IMG/VR virus record: IMGVR_UViG_3300030101_002074
Location: 1-25,071 of that record
Reading direction: 5' to 3' (one strand)
Source: a virus
Length of the DNA: 25,071 nt
How positions within the stretch are numbered: position 1 is the stretch's first letter; every line of letters begins with the position of its first letter. The position numbers and the translations under genes were made by a program. This document shows, piece after piece, positions 613 through 24,885 of the stretch. The notes below the pieces were generated by a model. That model was not told where the DNA came from. It did no database searches and saw only the letters and a program-made list of their open reading frames with translations.

Positions 613-1521
613 TTAACTTGCTCCTGAAGATCCGAAGATACCTCTAAAGTCAGATACACCAAATCTGTATCTTTCTCTAGCTTTGTATCTTACGTTTCCA
701 GTATCAAAATCACCTTCCATAGCTGTTCTAATAGGTGTTCTTTCAAAATACTTCATACCGTTAGGTACATCAGTAATGAAGAAGTACGCATTAGGATCAG
801 TTAAGAAATTGTTCACTCTGTAACCTTGAGGAACCATTCCCATAGAAACGATTGCATTGATATCATTGTCAGCAGTGCCAGTTCTACCTTGAGACTTCAT
901 AAGTCTTTCAGCTTGGAATTGAAGCTCAGAAGGAACGATCATTTTCATTCCTCTAGCAGCAATTTTTAGACCTCTCTCATCTGTGAAAGCATTGATGTCA
1001 ATTAAAGACTGCTCCAAAGATGTTTCGTTAAGGTCTGCCTGTGTAGCCAAAGTATTTGACACAGTTCCAGCGATCGTTGGGTGAGAAGTTGCAAACAAGT
1101 TGCTTCCATCTCCAGAAGTGAAACCACCTCCGAAACCATTGATCAAAGGATTAACCGCTTTGATTTGTTTAGTGTTCGCCATAGATCTAGCTAACGCTTT
1201 TGTATATCTAGACGCAAGTCTATCATACAGGTTGTCCTCAATCGCTTCTTCAGTGATTGCGAACGCTAGCGCAACAGTTTCCATAGTGTATCTAGCTGTG
1301 TAAGTCTCTTGAGCATTGTCAAAAGTTACGCCAGAACCTTCAGGTTTAACTGCAGCATTAGCAAAACCAGATAACATAACTTCTTCTTCAAACGCTCTGT
1401 CTGAAGTTTCTGTTGTGTAGATCTCAGCATGCTGATTCTCATAACGTTTATATTCCAGTCCGAATAGTGCATTCAGGCCTGGTTCTAGTTCTTTAACTAG
1501 TTGTCCTCGTGATATAGCCAT
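613..1521 (-). CDS. Major capsid protein
   Basis: A 302-residue protein with the composition of an HK97-fold phage major head subunit. The N-terminus carries an alternating charged helix (residues 1-35). A Gly-rich stretch near residues 128-140 precedes a mostly alpha/beta body, and the C-terminal segment is rich in Arg and aromatic residues (about 265-300, KARERYRFGVSDFRG). AGGAG lies 8 nt before the ATG. It follows a scaffold gene and two structural genes, the standard head-module order. The length is typical for small tailed-phage capsid proteins without a delta domain. No frameshift or internal stop is seen. The assignment rests on context plus sequence style, not on an alignment. Confidence 0.82.
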   Translation of the reverse strand: MAISRGQLVKELEPGLNALFGLEYKRYENQHAEIYTTETSDRAFEEEVMLSGFANAAVKPEGSGVTFDNAQETYTARYTMETVALAFAITEEAIEDNLYDRLASRYTKALARSMANTKQIKAVNPLINGFGGGFTSGDGSNLFATSHPTIAGTVSNTLATQADLNETSLEQSLIDINAFTDERGLKIAARGMKMIVPSELQFQAERLMKSQGRTGTADNDINAIVSMGMVPQGYRVNNFLTDPNAYFFITDVPNGMKYFERTPIRTAMEGDFDTGNVRYKARERYRFGVSDFRGIFGSSGAS

Positions 1522-11623: not shown

Positions 11624-12373
11624 TTAAACTCCTAGTATTGCTGCTAGACCGCCTGATTGTTTTTCATCTCTATCGATAACACCTTTACCAATTAAGATAT
11701 CTTTTTGAGTGATTTGTCCGTCACCAGATAGATCAGGAAAAGATCCACCAGCTAAAGTAATTCTAGTTTTATCATCTTCAACTAATTCTTTAACAACTTC
11801 CATTCCAGGATCTCTACTAGCTGTACCCATTCTTAATTCATAAAATTCTTTTAGTTCATCTAATGAATTTGGTTTACGTCCTTTTTCTCTAATAAATTCT
11901 TTTACAACTTCTTCAATTCTAACTTCAGGTCTTATAGCAGCCATATCACTCATAGCTTCTCTTCTGAAACTATCAAAGTCCATAGGCTCTAAACCTTGTT
12001 CTAACATATCGAATCTGTATTTTTGATATTCGTCTTCTAGAGGATCTAAATCTACGTCTGCCATTTGCATGATGCCTGTATCCTGAGCCCTGACTTGTTC
12101 ACCCATAGGCACGCCTTGGTCTTTCATTAATTCAATTGTGTCTAAGTCTTCTTCTTGAAACTCTTCGACTTCATCACCTTGTGCATAAAAATTTCTCATG
12201 ATTCCTCCGTCAGCTTTTTTAGCTACTTTTCTTAGATCTTCTAAAGGAGACATTTCAATCTCTTTAATTTTTATATTATTCCTTTTTATATAATCTGTCA
12301 ATGAAATGCCTCGAAGCTTTTCACTACTAGAATTATATGAATCAATTACATCTTGGTATGTTTCTTCTTCCAT
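11624..12373 (-). CDS. EF-hand-loop-bearing phage protein
   Basis: 249 residues, acidic overall. The N-terminal half has a basic helix at about 28-55, and the middle is Glu/Asp/Met-rich. Near residues 215-226 there is a canonical calcium-loop pattern DLSGDGQITQKD, with ligand positions D1, S3, D5, T9 and D12 of an EF-hand/dockerin loop, followed by helix ILIGKGVI. A single loop of this kind could bind Ca2+ and stabilise a virion contact. The stop is 1 nt from the 669-aa gene's start region, and its ATG overlaps the TerL stop (TAATG). Role unknown, likely structural or tail-related. Confidence 0.65.
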   Translation of the reverse strand: MEEETYQDVIDSYNSSSEKLRGISLTDYIKRNNIKIKEIEMSPLEDLRKVAKKADGGIMRNFYAQGDEVEEFQEEDLDTIELMKDQGVPMGEQVRAQDTGIMQMADVDLDPLEDEYQKYRFDMLEQGLEPMDFDSFRREAMSDMAAIRPEVRIEEVVKEFIREKGRKPNSLDELKEFYELRMGTASRDPGMEVVKELVEDDKTRITLAGGSFPDLSGDGQITQKDILIGKGVIDRDEKQSGGLAAILGV

Positions 12374-13851
12374 TAATAATATGTCCTCTGTTGTGGAGGC
12401 ATTTTATCCTCCTCGTAATCTTCAGGGTGATTAATTAAACCTCCCTGTCTAAACCTCATAACAGCTTGGGTCATTGAGTCCACTAGATCATCATGGTCTC
12501 CATAAGGAAAAGCTGCACATTCCTCGATGACTTCTTGAGCGAAGTCCATTTCTTTGGGCGCCCATATCAGTCCCGACTCAAAGAGCGGAGATACTGCGTT
12601 TACCCTCGTGTGTTTATCGTTACCACGCGAAGGTGAGAAATTTATAACAGGAATACCCATCTTACGCAACTCATAAGTTAAAGGTAATCCTGATGCCTTA
12701 CTCTCGATTATAACTGTTTCCGGATTCCAGTAGCCGTATTGCTCCATCGCTATTCTACGAAGCTCAGGAAATTCATACCTACCTTTTAATGCATCAACTA
12801 AAATTAAACTTGGTGGTGAGTCTTCATTTTCTTGAAACACGCCCCAGGTGGTTATAGCAGAATAGTCGGCAGTTTCTTTTTTCATAAAAGCTGTATCATA
12901 AGATTGTATAATATGTTGAAGCGGTGGCATCTCATCTTCTTCCCAATCTCTCCACCATTCACGTTTTATTAATGCACCTTCTTCTGAAGTTGGATTTTGC
13001 ATATATTGTGCATTCCATTTAGTCAGAGGAATACTAGCTTTAACAGATTCTAAATCTTCTAACTTCCAATACTCTGGCCAAACAGGTTTGCCTGATGGAA
13101 GTATTGCAGGAAATTCTATAACCTCCCACTGATCTGCTTTAACTCCTTTTTGAGCATTTAATAATCTACCTGTTAAATCTTTTTCATTCCATCTTGTCAT
13201 GATTACAACAATTGATCCACCAGGTTGAAGACGTTGTCTAGGTCCTGATGTGTACCATTCATAAGTTCTTTCAAGAGCTTGATTATTCATTGCATCTTGT
13301 TCAGTGTGTGGGTCATCAATAATTAGTAAATCAGCTCCCCGTCCTGTAATAGCAGAACCAACACCAGCTGCATAATATTCACCACCTTGTTCGGTTTCCC
13401 ATTTACCAGCAGCTTGAGAATCAGGATTTAATCTAGTTTTAAAAACTTGTTTGTATTCTGCTGAATCCATTAAAGATTTAGCCTTACGACCAAACCTTAC
13501 AGATAATTCAGTTGTGTTAGTTGACTGAATAATTTTTAATTTAGGATTTCTGCCAACCATCCATGCAGGTAAAAGATAAGAGCCAAATTCAGACTTAGTA
13601 TGTCTAGGAGGCATATTAATAATTAATCTTTTAATTTTACCTTGAGCAAGTCTATCAAACTTATCTGCAATTTGTTTATGGTGTTTACCTTCAATAAAAT
13701 CTGGCCAAACATGTTTTACAAAATCCATGAAATTATTTTGTATACCAGCAGTCTTTTTCTTCTCACCATACTGATTAGCTAATAAGGAGAATTGTCTTCT
13801 TACGTCAGCAGGTAATTTATCAAAGTTCTTTAGTTTATCTTTATCTATCAT
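12373..13851 (-). CDS. terL: Terminase large subunit
   Basis: 492 residues. The packaging ATPase motif sits at 79-88 (NMPPRHTKSE, a deviant Walker A in which R/H replace the usual Gly pair). The Walker B is LLIIDDPH (175-182, acidic DD), and the coupling motif is near 215 (VVIMTRW). The nuclease domain is marked by SYDTAFMKKETADYS (about 317-331) and a further acidic cluster near AAFPYGDHDDLVDS (about 450-463). Standard length. It translocates DNA into the prohead with the portal and cuts the concatemer. It is the first gene of the late unit. No Shine-Dalgarno is obvious before the ATG at 13851. Small terminase is not adjacent (see 18576-19166). Confidence 0.93.
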   Translation of the reverse strand: MIDKDKLKNFDKLPADVRRQFSLLANQYGEKKKTAGIQNNFMDFVKHVWPDFIEGKHHKQIADKFDRLAQGKIKRLIINMPPRHTKSEFGSYLLPAWMVGRNPKLKIIQSTNTTELSVRFGRKAKSLMDSAEYKQVFKTRLNPDSQAAGKWETEQGGEYYAAGVGSAITGRGADLLIIDDPHTEQDAMNNQALERTYEWYTSGPRQRLQPGGSIVVIMTRWNEKDLTGRLLNAQKGVKADQWEVIEFPAILPSGKPVWPEYWKLEDLESVKASIPLTKWNAQYMQNPTSEEGALIKREWWRDWEEDEMPPLQHIIQSYDTAFMKKETADYSAITTWGVFQENEDSPPSLILVDALKGRYEFPELRRIAMEQYGYWNPETVIIESKASGLPLTYELRKMGIPVINFSPSRGNDKHTRVNAVSPLFESGLIWAPKEMDFAQEVIEECAAFPYGDHDDLVDSMTQAVMRFRQGGLINHPEDYEEDKMPPQQRTYY

Positions 13852-14229
13852 TTGAAAAAAATTTTCTGAAAAATTTTTACACTATTTTTTTGAAAAGTAA
13901 AAAAGTATTCTAAGGCTTTAAATGTATGAAAGCTGGCATAAATACAAAACTTTGGGACCCCTTTTGTAAAAATAAAAAAACCTTTTTGTAAAAAAATTTA
14001 AAAACCGGAACCGGTCTGGTACCTCTATCATATCAACCCAGCTGGTTTCCGTGCACGTACTCCCAGCCGAGCAAACTCCAGGTCCCTACCCTTGCGGGTC
14101 ATTGGTAACGTCCAGGGAAATGCCAGCGGCTAGATGTGTACGCCCTTGAGCTTTCAGTTCAATTCTCTTGATGCCCGGCGCACAACCTATGCTTGTATGC
14201 AAGGATTGCATAGGATGTGCGCTTGGCTA
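13852..14229. other. Non-coding gap with GC-rich structured part and hairpin
   Basis: No convincing gene in 378 nt. The left 150 nt are AT-rich (possible late promoter region, although no strong TTGACA/TATAAT pair was found before TerL). About 14005-14229 is clearly richer in G+C than the surroundings and has many small inverted repeats: ACCGG-AA-CCGGT near 14003, CCAGCTGG, CGTGCACG, ACCC-TTGC-GGGT, and a 15-bp-arm hairpin 14178-14192 with 14208-14222 (GCGCAC..., one mismatch, 15-nt loop). The hairpin lies just downstream of the minus-strand gene at 14230, so it may end the early transcripts, but no T-run follows. Confidence 0.5.
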
Positions 14230-15224: not shown

Positions 15225-16190
15225 TTAATTTATACTTTCTTCATATTTTTTTCTAGCCAATATCTTCGCCTCTCTTGATTGATGTTTATTCTTCATGCCT
15301 TTAATCATACTTGCAAGATTACTTGGATTATAGATTGTAAGACCTGTTGAGTTAGTTCTAATTAACTCTGCCTCATCAACTTGTATTCCAAGTTCTGTTG
15401 CCAACTCAATACCCTCTGATAAATACCTGTATGCTTTCAATCCAATTTTTAATTGATCGCATTGTTTCATAATTGTATCAATCCATTGTTGATGTTTAAC
15501 AACCAGATTACCTTTTGCAATTCGCCAAGTTTCAAATGCCTCGTATTCATCTTTAGTACAAGCAATAGCACGTGAACGACAGTAAGATGTTCCAATTACA
15601 TCAAGATAGTATGGTTCATTAAAAGTTTTAGCCATACCCATATCATCACTATTTCTATAATTACTGCTACTATATCCGAGTGCTTTCATACACGCGTCAA
15701 CATGTTTTGTTTTGTGTGGGTTGTCCTTGTTGTCATTTTGTTGTGCATAGATATCTGGGTTGCAATCCATAGCTTTTAGTTCTTCTCTAAAATATGCAGT
15801 TGCAAACTTTCTACCCTCGCTATCGTGGTATTCACTTCCGTCAAGATTACCAAACAAACCAAAATCAAAATGTGATTTTGTTTCTTTTGTTTCGCCGTCC
15901 TCATCTAAATCTTCATTGTGTGCAAAATAAAAACATTTATCTTTTGCAACAACATCACAAGGGTTGCCATACTTCTTTTTAAAGTGTCTTAAAGTTGCAA
16001 CATCTTCTGTTGGGTATGCTCTTTCAACAACTTGCTTTGCAAGTTCACTTGCCATTGTATATTGTTGATCAACAATTTCCCTTGCCTGTAAGTATGCCTC
16101 TCGTTCTTGAGTGTCCTCATTCTCAAAGACATCTTTTATTTTATTAAAGAGTTTATTTCGCAACTCTGTATTCATTCGTATTTTTTGCAT
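15225..16190 (-). CDS. 321-aa hypothetical early protein
   Basis: About 321 residues from the ATG at 16190. That start is chosen because it carries the AAAGG site and the ATGCAA leader shared with the other two early genes, whereas the longer start at 16217 lies within the promoter footprint. Sequence is highly helical and charged, with Cys-containing middle segments and a Lys/Arg-rich end. No motif is recognised. Function unknown, and a DNA-replication or take-over protein is possible only by context. Confidence 0.65.
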   Translation of the reverse strand: MQKIRMNTELRNKLFNKIKDVFENEDTQEREAYLQAREIVDQQYTMASELAKQVVERAYPTEDVATLRHFKKKYGNPCDVVAKDKCFYFAHNEDLDEDGETKETKSHFDFGLFGNLDGSEYHDSEGRKFATAYFREELKAMDCNPDIYAQQNDNKDNPHKTKHVDACMKALGYSSSNYRNSDDMGMAKTFNEPYYLDVIGTSYCRSRAIACTKDEYEAFETWRIAKGNLVVKHQQWIDTIMKQCDQLKIGLKAYRYLSEGIELATELGIQVDEAELIRTNSTGLTIYNPSNLASMIKGMKNKHQSREAKILARKKYEESIN

Positions 16191-16223
16191 TTGTGCCTTT
16201 CGTGTTTTGTTAAACATACTCCT

Positions 16224-16564: not shown

Positions 16565-16699
16565 AGAATTCCCATAGCCTGAGTCGGAATTAAAAAACTC
16601 ATTCAGGCACGGGACTTGCACCGGAAAAAGCAAGTAGGATCAAACGGTAGCGTTTCTAGTAGCTAAAACTTTACCGGGTTAAAGCTTATACCTACCGTG

Positions 16700-16776
16700 C
16701 TGATCCCTGGTCCATTAATTAAAGTAATGGAAGAACCCGCAGTGGAATTACCTCTGCTTGATGGACCTGGGATCAG
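16700..16776. repeat. Long hairpin, copy 1
   Basis: 16-nt arms 16700-16715 and 16761-16776 (CTGATCCC-T-GGTCCAT and partner) with one central T-T mismatch and a 45-nt loop. The loop itself contains shorter stems. Confidence 0.8.
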
Positions 16777-16896
16777 TTCACAACCGGGAACGAATTGGTT
16801 GGGAAATAGTGTAGGGCACTGTGTGGGTAGCTGGTATTCCAGGGTACTCTGAGACAACTCAAACTGACGGAAGTTGAACAGTCCACAATCACCCTA

Positions 16897-16953
16897 CTGA
16901 TCCCTGGTCTATTGCAAGCGCAATTGGTATTACTGTGATAGACCTGGGATCAG
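16897..16953. repeat. Long hairpin, copy 2, with compensatory change
   Basis: 16-nt arms 16897-16912 and 16938-16953 (CTGATCCC-T-GGTCTAT and partner), same T-T mismatch at the centre, 25-nt loop. Relative to copy 1 one C-G pair is replaced by a T-A pair, both arms changed together. Confidence 0.8.
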
Positions 16954-17010
16954 TCAACCTAAGGTTGTACAACTTGAGGTTGTGTCTAGTTTGTTTGTTT
17001 TGAGTCAGGG

Positions 17011-17056
17011 CTCAAGCTTCAAGCAGCAAGCCACAAGCGACTTGACAAGCTCAAGC
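17011..17056 (+). repeat. Heptad CAAGC repeat array, left copy
   Basis: Six units of period seven, each ending CAAGC (CTCAAGC, TTCAAGC, AGCAAGC, CACAAGC, then degenerate units and CAAGC). The first 16 nt plus preceding GG (17009-17024) are repeated exactly at 17909-17924. Confidence 0.85.
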
Positions 17057-17070
17057 AATTGGTGTATAGG
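17042..17070 (+). promoter_or_regulatory. Likely promoter for the gp88-family gene
   Basis: TTGACA (17042-17047), 17-nt spacer made of the repeat array, TATAGG (17065-17070). The AAAGGA site lies 8 nt before the ATG at 17089. The -35 is perfect, the -10 is weaker. Confidence 0.5.
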
Positions 17071-17088: not shown

Positions 17089-17682
17089 ATGAAAGTAACA
17101 GAAGCAAGAAAGATAACAGACTCATTAACAAGAACCTCAAAAATGCCTGGCCTAAGTTACAGCCTGCCAGCGTGGGAGTGTAAGACAGGCTCGAAGCTTA
17201 GAAAAATTAAGGGCTCAGTTTGCAGCGCCTGCTACGCCCTGAAGGGTAACTATACAAGATACAAAGCAATTAAGATTGCACAATACAGAAGACTTGCAGC
17301 AATCAAGCTTGAAGGATGGACGCGAGCTATGGCTGCGCAAATCATCAGGCAGAAATATTTCAGATGGCATGATGCAGGAGATGTACAAGATCTAGATCAT
17401 TTAAATAAAATTTATGAAGTATGTAGACTCACACCTGAGGTGAAGCACTGGATGCCAACGCGTGAAGCGTGGGTAAAAAAATATTTAGGCAGCAAACCAG
17501 CTAACCTAGTGATCAGGTTCTCCCCTCCAATGATTAACCAACGCAATGACAGCTGGCCTAACTCTTCAATGGTTGTAGAGACTGGCGCCACGTGTCCAGC
17601 CCCTGCACAAAATAACAGCTGCGGTGACTGCAGAGCCTGCTGGGATCCGCTGGTAAAAGTTGTATCATATGGTAAACACTAA
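17089..17682 (+). CDS. Gp88-family phage protein
   Basis: 197 residues. The motif FRWHDAGDVQ (91-100) and WMPTRE (121-126), with early Cys cluster C45-SAC48-Y and a C-terminal CGDCRACW (178-185), match what I know of the phage gene product 88 family (mycobacteriophage-type gp88 domain). Cysteines 31, 45, 48, 169, 178, 181 and 184 could bind zinc or an iron-sulfur cluster. Biochemical role unknown. The gene is in the opposite direction to its surroundings, has G+C-richer codons, and is bracketed by two CAAGC repeat arrays, so it looks like an acquired cassette. AAAGGA site present. Confidence 0.8.
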   Translation: MKVTEARKITDSLTRTSKMPGLSYSLPAWECKTGSKLRKIKGSVCSACYALKGNYTRYKAIKIAQYRRLAAIKLEGWTRAMAAQIIRQKYFRWHDAGDVQDLDHLNKIYEVCRLTPEVKHWMPTREAWVKKYLGSKPANLVIRFSPPMINQRNDSWPNSSMVVETGATCPAPAQNNSCGDCRACWDPLVKVVSYGKH

Positions 17683-17683
17683 T

Positions 17684-17884
17684 ATGCATGAATTTAAACA
17701 TCCAAACTATTATAAAGAATTACGCAAGCGTAATAAATCGGATCAGGCCATTAGCAAACCCGACAATCGCGAAGTCGTTGATAGCGTGCGTCCTGGTCCG
17801 GGCCACAAGCAAGAAGACTCAAGCGACAAGCAACAAGCAGCTGAGGCTCAAGCCTCAAGCTACAAACGCTCAAGCCACAAGTAA
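17684..17884 (+). CDS. Small hypothetical downstream of gp88
   Basis: 66 residues from the ATG at 17684, 1 nt after the gp88 stop codon (17680-17682). The first 40 residues look protein-like (HEFKHPNYYKELRKRNKSDQ and VDSVRPGPGHKQ). The remaining 26 are translated CAAGC repeat (Ser/Lys/Gln/Ala-rich). A rival reading in a second frame (17688-17945) is almost entirely repeat. Whether the tail is meaningful is unclear. Low confidence. Confidence 0.35.
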   Translation: MHEFKHPNYYKELRKRNKSDQAISKPDNREVVDSVRPGPGHKQEDSSDKQQAAEAQASSYKRSSHK

Positions 17885-17938
17885 CAAGCCTCAAGCCCTA
17901 GGGCGCAAGGCTCAAGCTTCAAGCCACAAGCGTCAAGC
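17804..17938 (+). repeat. Heptad CAAGC repeat array, right copy
   Basis: About 19 units of period seven, mostly NNCAAGC, with three units of eight or degenerate. The unit string GGCTCAAGCTTCAAGC (17909-17924) is identical to the left array (17009-17024), and both continue CACAAGCG, the left copy having one extra unit. Because seven is not a multiple of three, the array encodes a 7-residue repeat in each frame. Confidence 0.85.
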
Positions 17939-18228
17939 TCCATAATATCCTTCCCCTCATAAAGTTTTACAAGGTTAAGGGAGAGGGCCTTAACCAGAAT
18001 AAATGAATGGTTTGGATGTTTTACATGAAACGCAAATTGATGAGGTGAGAAGCGTACCTTGTTGGTTTTTGTAGCTTTCAGTTCCAGTGTAAAAAAGTGC
18101 CCACTAGAATTATAGCCCAGTAGATCGGGAGTACCGAAAGAGCCAGTATTTTCAATCCTAGTCCACGATATTTTAGGTGTATATTTTTTAAGTTCATGCC
18201 ATAGTTTCCGTTCAGGTTTGACTGACAT
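17860..18228 (-). CDS. VRR-NUC-like PD-(D/E)XK nuclease with repeat-derived tail
   Basis: 122 residues. The nuclease core has E12 after W10, then the GTPD motif (32-35, with G32 and D35), FTLELK (46-51, catalytic E49 and K51) and a closing SPHQ (61-64), the expected order for VRR-NUC/Holliday-junction-type nucleases. It would cut structured DNA. The last 26 residues (from about 97) are coded by the CAAGC array on the opposite strand and have a periodic Leu/Glu/Cys/Gly pattern (ACGLKLEPC, CALGLEAC). The natural C-terminus was probably shorter and extended by the repeat. ATG is the first in frame. Confidence 0.75.
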   Translation of the reverse strand: MSVKPERKLWHELKKYTPKISWTRIENTGSFGTPDLLGYNSSGHFFTLELKATKTNKVRFSPHQFAFHVKHPNHSFILVKALSLNLVKLYEGKDIMELDACGLKLEPCALGLEACYLWLERL

Positions 18229-23243: not shown

Positions 23244-23445
23244 TATCCTTTATAAATTTTTTATCGCTTTCACTTAATCTTAAATATCTTATACTACCAT
23301 TAATGTGTTGTCTAGTATCTGCTCCACAGTTGGTGCATCTATAAAAATCTGAAACGATTGCAACTAAAATCGTATTTTCTTCGCACTCTTCACAGATACC
23401 ATGCACTGTATCTATTTTGTTAAATAATTTAAACTTATTACTCAT
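23236..23445 (-). CDS. Zinc-ribbon protein
   Basis: 69 residues. Two Cys pairs, CEEC (18-21) and CTNC (37-40), with a beta-ribbon pattern (VAIVSDFYRCTNCGADT), form a rubredoxin-like zinc ribbon. It resembles transcription- or ribosome-associated small proteins, though the partner is unknown. The start overlaps the carbamoyltransferase C-half stop by four bases (ATGA). Confidence 0.7.
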   Translation of the reverse strand: MSNKFKLFNKIDTVHGICEECEENTILVAIVSDFYRCTNCGADTRQHINGSIRYLRLSESDKKFIKDNG

Positions 23446-23969
23446 GGTGTATATAAATAATTTATCTCGCTATTTTGTAAAGTTAATAAAGCATCATTAA
23501 ATGTTTCAACAATTGGCCAACCCTTTAAATTAAAAGATGTATTAAGTAAAATAGGAACACCTGTTTTTTTATAAAATAAATTTATTAAATCATAATAATT
23601 AGGATTTTGTTCACGTTTTAAAGTTTGAAATCTACAAGTGTTATCCGCATGTACGCATGCAGGAACTTCATCAATAGCTTTTTGTTTAGCATCAATTGCA
23701 AAAGACATATTAGGTGATTCATCTAAAGTATGCATATCAAGATATTCATGTCTATATTCATATAATATAGTAGCTGCTGTTGGTCTCCACCACTGCCTAC
23801 CCTTTATTTTATTTATTATTTCTTTTGCATTTTTATTTCTAGGATCAAATAACATAGAACGATTGCCTAATGCACGTGCCCCCCATTCAGAGTGTCCCTG
23901 AAATATAGCAACAACCTGTTGATCTAATATTTTTTCTATTGCTTCTTCTTTTTTATGTATAATTTTCAT
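23442..23969 (-). CDS. O-carbamoyltransferase, C-terminal half
   Basis: 175 residues. The motif QGHSEWGARALGNRS (24-38) with FDPR (41-44) is the signature of the C-terminal (YrdC-like) domain of NodU/CmcH/TobZ carbamoyltransferases. That domain makes carbamoyl-AMP from carbamoyl phosphate and ATP, while the N-terminal half transfers it. Here it is a separate gene beginning inside the end of the N-half (17-nt overlap, different frame). The last part, PILLNTSFNLKGWPIVETFNDALL, matches the family's closing region. Likely modifies a sugar of the host surface, a small molecule or DNA. Which is not visible. Confidence 0.85.
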   Translation of the reverse strand: MKIIHKKEEAIEKILDQQVVAIFQGHSEWGARALGNRSMLFDPRNKNAKEIINKIKGRQWWRPTAATILYEYRHEYLDMHTLDESPNMSFAIDAKQKAIDEVPACVHADNTCRFQTLKREQNPNYYDLINLFYKKTGVPILLNTSFNLKGWPIVETFNDALLTLQNSEINYLYTP

Positions 23970-24885
23970 GATAATATACTATTCCTACTGCTGTTCCTCC
24001 ATCATAAGGAATTGGATCTACAAAAAAATTAAGATTTGAAAAATGTTTTACCAATTTAAAATTATTTGCGCAGTTTAAATGATAACCCCCTGTTAATATT
24101 ATATTTTTACAATCACTATAGGTTAATGCTTTTTCAATTAATTCTATTCTATCTTGTAAAGTTTCTTCTTGTGCTTTATGTGCTATTTCTAAAACATTCT
24201 TATCTATATTAGTATTCTTATTTTTATAGGCAGCTACTCCCATCATTTGTCCTTCTTCTTTAGGATTAAAACCTGCTTTTCGTAAATACTTTATATATTT
24301 TATACCCCCAATATTCCCATTAGTTAATTTTACATCCACCATATCATTTAGCCAATCTTTCTTATCATATTTTGTTTTAACTTCTCTATCGTCAAACCAA
24401 AAATCTTCACGCACATTAGTTGCAGCCTGATAACATTTTTTAAAAGTATTATCATCAACTTTAATAATAGATTCTACTGTTTGAAAATTATTATTTACAA
24501 TTCTTTCCCCACCTCCATCTGTTACTACAGCTATGGCTTCTTTAAACTTACTAAAATAATAACCACACATTGCATGAGATAAATGATGTTCTTTTTGATA
24601 AAAAATAGAATCTTTAAATTTTATTTGTTCTAAAATATTATCCACATATGGTTTTTCTATTAAATGATGACCTCTATCATAAGATATAATAACCACGTTG
24701 TCGAAAATAATGTCTTTAAATTTTTTTAGTCCTTCGTATTTATATTTTTTATAAAAAGGATCAGGAGGTACAAAATGTTTAACTTTATTAAATCTTTCTT
24801 CTTCGTAATACTCTTTTAAAACACCATCTTCAAAATAAGCGAACGAACAATTATGTGATATATTAACACCTAGTATCTTTCTCAT
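23953..24885 (-). CDS. O-carbamoyltransferase, N-terminal (Kae1-like) half
   Basis: 310 residues. GVNISHNCSFAYFEDG (6-21) starts the ASKHA fold. HHLSHA (100-105) supplies the metal-binding His pair, VTDGGGER (121-128) the nucleotide-binding loop, and TGGYHLNCANNFKL (about 265-278) and DPIPYDGGTAVG (about 292-303) the family closing motifs. Transfers the carbamoyl group to a hydroxyl. Phage copies usually form one chain of roughly 500-600 residues with the C-half, and here the total is 485 over two genes. Upstream is the endolysin; the stop lies 11 nt from this start. An AGAAAG site precedes the ATG. Confidence 0.87.
   Translation of the reverse strand: MRKILGVNISHNCSFAYFEDGVLKEYYEEERFNKVKHFVPPDPFYKKYKYEGLKKFKDIIFDNVVIISYDRGHHLIEKPYVDNILEQIKFKDSIFYQKEHHLSHAMCGYYFSKFKEAIAVVTDGGGERIVNNNFQTVESIIKVDDNTFKKCYQAATNVREDFWFDDREVKTKYDKKDWLNDMVDVKLTNGNIGGIKYIKYLRKAGFNPKEEGQMMGVAAYKNKNTNIDKNVLEIAHKAQEETLQDRIELIEKALTYSDCKNIILTGGYHLNCANNFKLVKHFSNLNFFVDPIPYDGGTAVGIVYYHENYT

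Follow-up and report, generated by a model that had tools for sequence, protein, structure and literature searches.

An array of exchangeable hairpins upstream of gp88 points to a large, probably self-associating RNA in pelagiphages

Positions 16565-17010 of the viral record IMGVR_UViG_3300030101_002074 (25,071 nt; this whole stretch is called the window here) are dense in inverted repeats, which raises the question of whether they belong to an RNA, to a DNA element or to nothing functional at all, and, if to an RNA, to what kind. An initial annotation had proposed a large structured phage noncoding RNA. This proposal is supported by very strong covariation in homologues; the feature turned out to be larger than described, and a repeated constant-base hairpin, the exchange of modules and palindrome switching had been missed.

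Because its terminase large subunit (12373-13851, minus strand) shares 95% identity with the Pelagibacter phage HTVC027P protein (61% with that of HTVC023P), the window is assigned as a fragment of an HTVC027P-like pelagiphage. As had been annotated, the region lies within a plus-strand island beside gp88; it is bounded by a minus-strand gene (15225-16217) and by gp88 (17089-17682), which is located downstream on the same strand. The gp88 product is only 61% identical to its HTVC027P homologue, compared with 95% for the terminase, and by this measure the island adjoining the RNA is mosaic. The small ORF preceding the RNA was also found by alignment in the close relatives L001 and L003; it had no PHROG or Pfam match and belongs to no known family. 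Two sigma70-type promoter matches on the minus strand (16332-16304 and 16252-16224; 12/12 and 11/12) point away from the RNA and lie upstream of the gene at 15225-16217. Far from the region, two overlapping minus-strand ORFs (23442-23969 and 23953-24885) resemble, by eye only, the two halves of a NodU/CmcH-type carbamoyltransferase.

Anatomy of the region and its homologues

The inverted repeats previously noted (at least eight, of 5-16 bp) are present, and the strongest have arms of 19 nt (16700-16718/16758-16776, 89%) and 17 nt (16896-16912/16938-16954, 94%); others include 16955-16968/16969-16982 and 16644-16650/16692-16698. The G+C content is indeed higher than in the surroundings (0.43-0.49 vs 0.26-0.40 in the gene to the left). 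On either strand, the region folded more strongly than each of its 100 dinucleotide shuffles (z = -4.7 for plus, -5.3 for minus); as both strands fold beyond their shuffles, folding alone cannot assign the strand. Both of the strongest repeats belong to the same type of hairpin (repeat families D1 and D2), with tips that are unrelated. They share a base stem consisting of CUGAUCCC, a U·U mismatch and GG, followed by seven more pairs, and are called constant-base hairpins here. For practical purposes, the RNA can be taken to run from about 16566 to about 17000 in the window (Table 1).

Table 1. Features of the RNA region and its neighbours in the window
Feature	Position	Strand	Sequence or remark
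Small ORF, 54 aa	16400..16564	+	From the ORF listing; stop codon just 5′ of the pseudoknot
5′ H-type pseudoknot	16567..16608	+	S1 AATTCC 16567-16572 / GGAATT 16586-16591
Pseudoknot stem S2 (within 16567..16608)	16577-16584 / about 16601-16608	+	
GGGAC, then hairpin	16611..16634	+	CTTGC(ACCGGAAAAA)GCAAG; conserved in relatives
Variable hairpin V1	16644..16698	+	Stem ACGGTAG/CTACCGT; a single base separates V1 from the hairpin after it
Constant-base hairpin C1	16700..16776	+	CTGATCCC-U-GGTCCATTAA ... TTGATGGACC-U-GGGATCAG
Compound variable module V2	16777..16896	+	Between C1 and C2; similar copies in relatives
Constant-base hairpin C2	16897..16953	+	CTGATCCC-U-GGTCTATT ... GTGATAGACC-U-GGGATCAG
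3′ double hairpin	16955..16983	+	CAACCTAAGGTTG, ACAACTTGAGGTTGT; 10-nt palindrome GTTGTACAAC at 16964-16973
Promoter-like site for downstream gene	17042..17070	+	TTGACA, 17 nt, TATAGG
gp88 homologue	17089..17682	+	Pfam PF17338, 89.9 bits (cut-off 24.4)

Homologues were collected through a scan for gp88 relatives (80 viral loci) and through hairpin pattern scans, which gave a fetched set of 335 sequences. These hold at least 388 distinct constant-base hairpins in at least 310 viral loci, with 1 to 5 per array and a span of 50-128 nt in all. The isolate HTVC027P has one element in its whole genome (MN698241.1, 18050-18099, where the gp88 strand is the minus strand) and 023Pt_psg01 one within the 8.3-kb stretch examined; there was none in the stretches adjoining the terminase of HTVC023P and DSL-LC04. 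Among 84,980 cellular genomes there was neither a match to the full hairpin pattern nor a convincing copy, and a looser pattern yielded 14 matches, by our estimate about the number expected by chance, the stems of which do not continue. Judged by these searches, the hairpin element is virus-specific. In DNA similarity searches against named phages the window's array found nothing, and that of HTVC027P only itself and chance matches.

The Rfam search suggested in the initial annotation yielded nothing for the region alone, even with E values up to 10 allowed. At gathering scores, cmscan of the window and 20 further loci placed no family over the array, and at permissive thresholds only sub-threshold chance matches fell there, with matches to Flavobacterium-1 RNA (RF02976) located elsewhere. 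In the window, the latter lies at 14036-14153 on the minus strand (90.3 bits), flanked by the terminase large subunit gene and a small ORF, and it occurs in L001 as well (923-1040, minus strand, 88.2 bits). The open-access literature searched, with incomplete coverage, held no description of such an RNA. By these comparisons, no described RNA family matches it.

The individual elements of Table 1 recur in relatives. For the pseudoknot, simple alignment left the stems poorly aligned, and a stem search with shuffled controls was used, in which high-scoring H-type pseudoknots were found for 51/82 relatives vs 7/82 shuffled sequences. Some 25 relatives share the GGGAC/CTTGC 5′ element, and in these the first constant-base hairpin lies about 60-80 nt downstream of it. 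Variable hairpins finish 0-2 nt 5′ of constant-base hairpins in the relatives' arrays, and helices ending 1 nt upstream were found in 261 of 362 cases vs 82/362 in the control. Copies of V2 with 86-91% identity exist in L117, L075, L108, L148 and L240, and a related copy of the 3′ double hairpin in L290/L003 has GGTTGTACAACC. Within 220 nt after the last hairpin, 121 of 245 loci have the motif CTGGTC, compared with 10 in shuffled sequences. Single-sequence folds suggest that this motif pairs with the 5′ GGGAC; both sides of this pairing hardly vary, so covariation is non-informative here.

Compensatory changes and strand

The covariation analysis that had been proposed as a check came out clearly: stems are conserved by compensatory changes, beyond both shuffled and slid controls. 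In 60 distinct hairpins, 96.6% of the stem cells are paired, and changes on both sides affect 129 cells vs 35.8 in shuffles and 15-31 in slid versions. Among 242 cluster representatives, paired positions reach G = 444 vs 56 for the best unpaired combination; stem positions 11-18 covary strongly, and there is nothing comparable off the diagonal. Sequences around a conserved loop tell the same: for GATACACAGACAA, exchanged and still complementary stems were found in 13/13 contexts, and for TCACAC..CGTCTT in 39/41. Compensatory changes were also observed in relatives for the window's own elements, namely V1 (ACAGTAG/CTACTGT in L061, G-C to A-U), the inner stem of V2 (AACT/AGTT to CGCT/AGCG in L075 and L240) and S2 of the pseudoknot (CCTGA/TCAGG to CCTGG/CCAGG in L011, with the stem kept). 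At pairs 10-19, the 242 representatives have 217 G·U and 27 A·C combinations. As a G·U on the plus strand is an A·C mismatch on the other, this asymmetry indicates that the plus strand is selected as RNA. The substitution patterns thus show RNA-level structure and its strand.

These data bear on the simplest alternative, that there is no functional RNA and the region consists of chance inverted repeats or decaying coding sequence. Isolated short ORFs within the stretch would fit such a view; hundreds of covarying homologues and the folding beyond all shuffles contradict it already, and we give it a negligible probability.

Module exchange and palindrome switching

The arrays are replaced quickly. 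Between the window and L001 the gp88 proteins are 96% identical and the flanks similar, and the arrays are different; of 260 pairs whose gp88 genes are 85-95% identical in DNA, 230 had less than 30% of the array in common. The 367 hairpin cores make up 244 clusters, and cores that recur have different neighbours. The module C1 recurs in L108 and L290; in L108 it occupies another position in the array and is preceded by V2, which is the opposite of the order in the window. Ends of matches lie within the constant arms at a frequency of 0.49 vs 0.19 expected, which is partly a consequence of these arms being conserved everywhere. As read from these arrays, modules are shown to be swapped among phages.

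This shuffling could itself be the function, if the hairpins were a DNA-level element, folded as single-stranded DNA or cruciforms for site-specific recombination in the manner of integron attC sites. The latter have conserved hairpin ends, variable middles and cassette shuffling, and act as folded DNA, the single-stranded substrate of an integrase. The array resembles them in its hairpins with conserved ends and variable middles, here shuffled among phages, and in the excess of match ends in the constant arms. It differs in its conserved arms (CTGATCCCTGG/CCTGGGATCAG) and in the strand-specific tolerance of G·U described above, which is expected of RNA and not of DNA; moreover, a DNA element gives no role to the conserved loops and palindromes within the tips, and promoters are found upstream of the arrays. 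We therefore consider this explanation very unlikely.

The tips contain 8-nt palindromes more often than expected (103 in the cores vs 34, sd 5, in shuffles). In one module, all 10 distinct copies have such a palindrome, with four different sequences: GCTCGAGC, ACCGCGGT, GCCATGGC and GCCCGGGC. Replacement of one palindrome by another accounted for 41 of 116 cases, a count that takes in overlapping windows and related sequences; this was the highest count for any of the 105 pairings of the eight positions, the others averaging 3.1, and those in second and third place (24 and 17) consist partly of shifted palindromes. As many as five different palindromes occur at one site. An earlier palindrome test (50/472 vs 15/410) included coding sequence and had a weak control, and it was replaced. 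By these counts, palindrome switching is shown for the array family. The window's own palindromes, TTAATTAA and GTTGTACAAC, are weak examples, and TTAATTAA is not kept in L108.

Palindromes are present once per array in 469 of 475 cases, so any pairing partner would have to be in another molecule. In a cryo-EM study, palindrome switching supported symmetric intermolecular contacts in OLE and GOLLD (PMC12286853). We infer that the RNA probably self-associates, forming homo-oligomers via self-complementary loops. Alternatively, a palindrome within a hairpin may form a short stem with a self-complementary tetraloop and never dimerise.

The base stem is near-invariant in sequence, and not in pairing alone: 6 of 18 pairs never vary. 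This, and the quick replacement of the array, would suit a scaffold or decoy RNA whose invariant 8-bp stem, with its U-U mismatch, is the binding site of a protein from phage or host, antagonistic pressure driving the change in the tips. To our knowledge no partner protein has been described, and palindrome-to-palindrome switching would be left unexplained. We regard this explanation as unlikely when taken by itself; it is compatible with self-association, and both could hold.

Transcription, gp88 and comparison with known RNAs

Of 245 loci, 147 have a sigma70-type promoter 5′ of the first hairpin, mostly about 110 nt from it, compared with 10 in reversed controls; where present, the pseudoknot comes shortly after this promoter. 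In the window, a strict consensus scan detected neither a strong sigma70 site upstream of the RNA on the plus strand nor an intrinsic terminator; hence the RNA may here be co-transcribed with the 54-aa ORF. From the sequences we infer promoter use and a separate transcription of the RNA in the phage of the window. The same scan missed the promoter-like site of the downstream gene (Table 1) since its TATAGG departs from TATAAT, and a similar site lies upstream of gp88 in 129 of 245 relatives.

Downstream of 270 arrays follows gp88 on the same strand at a median distance of 318 nt, a linkage count that is biased because loci were partly fetched through gp88. Taken at face value, this favours a cis-acting 5′ leader controlling gp88, such as an attenuator, riboswitch or thermosensor. 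Against it, the loci just mentioned have a separate promoter-like site for gp88 beyond the array, the same kind of array precedes other genes in long loci without gp88, and a regulatory switch fits poorly with the wholesale replacement of modules. Furthermore, the distant gp88 genes of HTVC033P, CRP-171 and Seuss lack such an element, the exact hairpin pattern being absent. A leader function appears quite improbable to us, and the idea of gp88 as an obligate partner was dropped, as arrays precede other genes too.

As to gp88 itself, its invariant cysteines (C31, C45, C48 and C169, C178, C181, C184) suggest a metal or iron-sulphur site. Its predicted fold (mean pLDDT 62.8) had no PDB match below E 0.001 and yielded no partner function. 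Tracts rich in CAAGC/TCAAGC repeats lie on either side of it in the window (17008-17058 and about 17780-17945), and tracts of this type are found upstream of gp88 in many relatives. In HTVC027P, where a site of the TTGACA-N17-TATATT type lies near the array, the gp88 homologue gp33 and gp34 are downstream of the array; gp34 (L081 3760-3900), a small gene, separates the array from gp33 and has a promoter-like site of its own. In the course of infection, gp33 and gp34 were grouped into a temporal cluster of their own, highly expressed at 6-9 h (PMC12753301). In the text of that study, no occurrence of "non-coding" or "intergenic" was found. Strand-specific RNA-seq of the HTVC027P infection of SAR11 HTCC1062 is public (PRJNA1253180).

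The best explanation, to which we assign a probability of roughly 0.6, is a phage RNA that is transcribed separately, assembled combinatorially and probably self-associating. The region would encode the main part of a large plus-strand noncoding RNA, in which the pseudoknot is followed by the GGGAC/CTTGC hairpin and by variable hairpins alternating with constant-base hairpins, ending before the gp88 promoter. It has no single fixed fold; instead, each phage carries its own assortment of hairpin modules, drawn from a shared pool through recombination. Self-complementary loops that are exposed would probably pair copies of the same RNA into a homo-oligomer, and our best guess for its role is a structural or host-interaction function during infection. 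More tentatively, lineage-specific palindromic loops on a reassembled RNA could make each phage's RNA prefer its own copies, a combinatorial self-recognition that would possibly tell it from the RNA of a co-infecting relative; we find this conceivable and rather doubtful.

GOLLD often lies near tRNA islands; the 25-kb window contains no tRNA, hence none near the array. Like the array, GOLLD is a large, ornate and partly variable RNA of phages and prophages; unlike GOLLD, the array has no Rfam match, showed no universally conserved 3′ domain and consists of exchangeable hairpins with a common base stem. Palindrome switching supports intermolecular symmetric kissing loops in GOLLD, and ROOL, likewise large and ornate, assembles into a homo-oligomeric cage that has kissing loops (PMC12286853). 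The array differs from ROOL in matching no Rfam family, in its variable hairpin number and in having no fixed secondary structure across members. Thus, the likeness to GOLLD and ROOL noted at the outset holds for the general character, a large ornate phage RNA with signs of self-association, and not for membership, as the array belongs to neither family. OLE is a bacterial RNA with one conserved fold, unlike this array of phage modules. Its dimer contact was supported by switching between palindromic tetranucleotides (PMC12286853). A possible likeness of the array to all three in homo-oligomeric assembly is drawn from palindrome switching and single copies of palindromes at the level of sequence.

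A new RNA family as such is not unusual; what sets this one apart is its combinatorial build. Known structured RNAs are families with one conserved, slowly varying fold, whereas conserved here is a construction kit of a constant base stem and recurring loop modules in phage-specific order. If the palindromes drive self-pairing, the arrays would amount to a natural and widely sampled set of interfaces for RNA assembly, present in viruses that rank among the most abundant known, whose hosts, SAR11, are the ocean's commonest bacteria. With HTVC027P, an isolate carrying one such element and covered by published strand-specific infection RNA-seq, this is directly testable.
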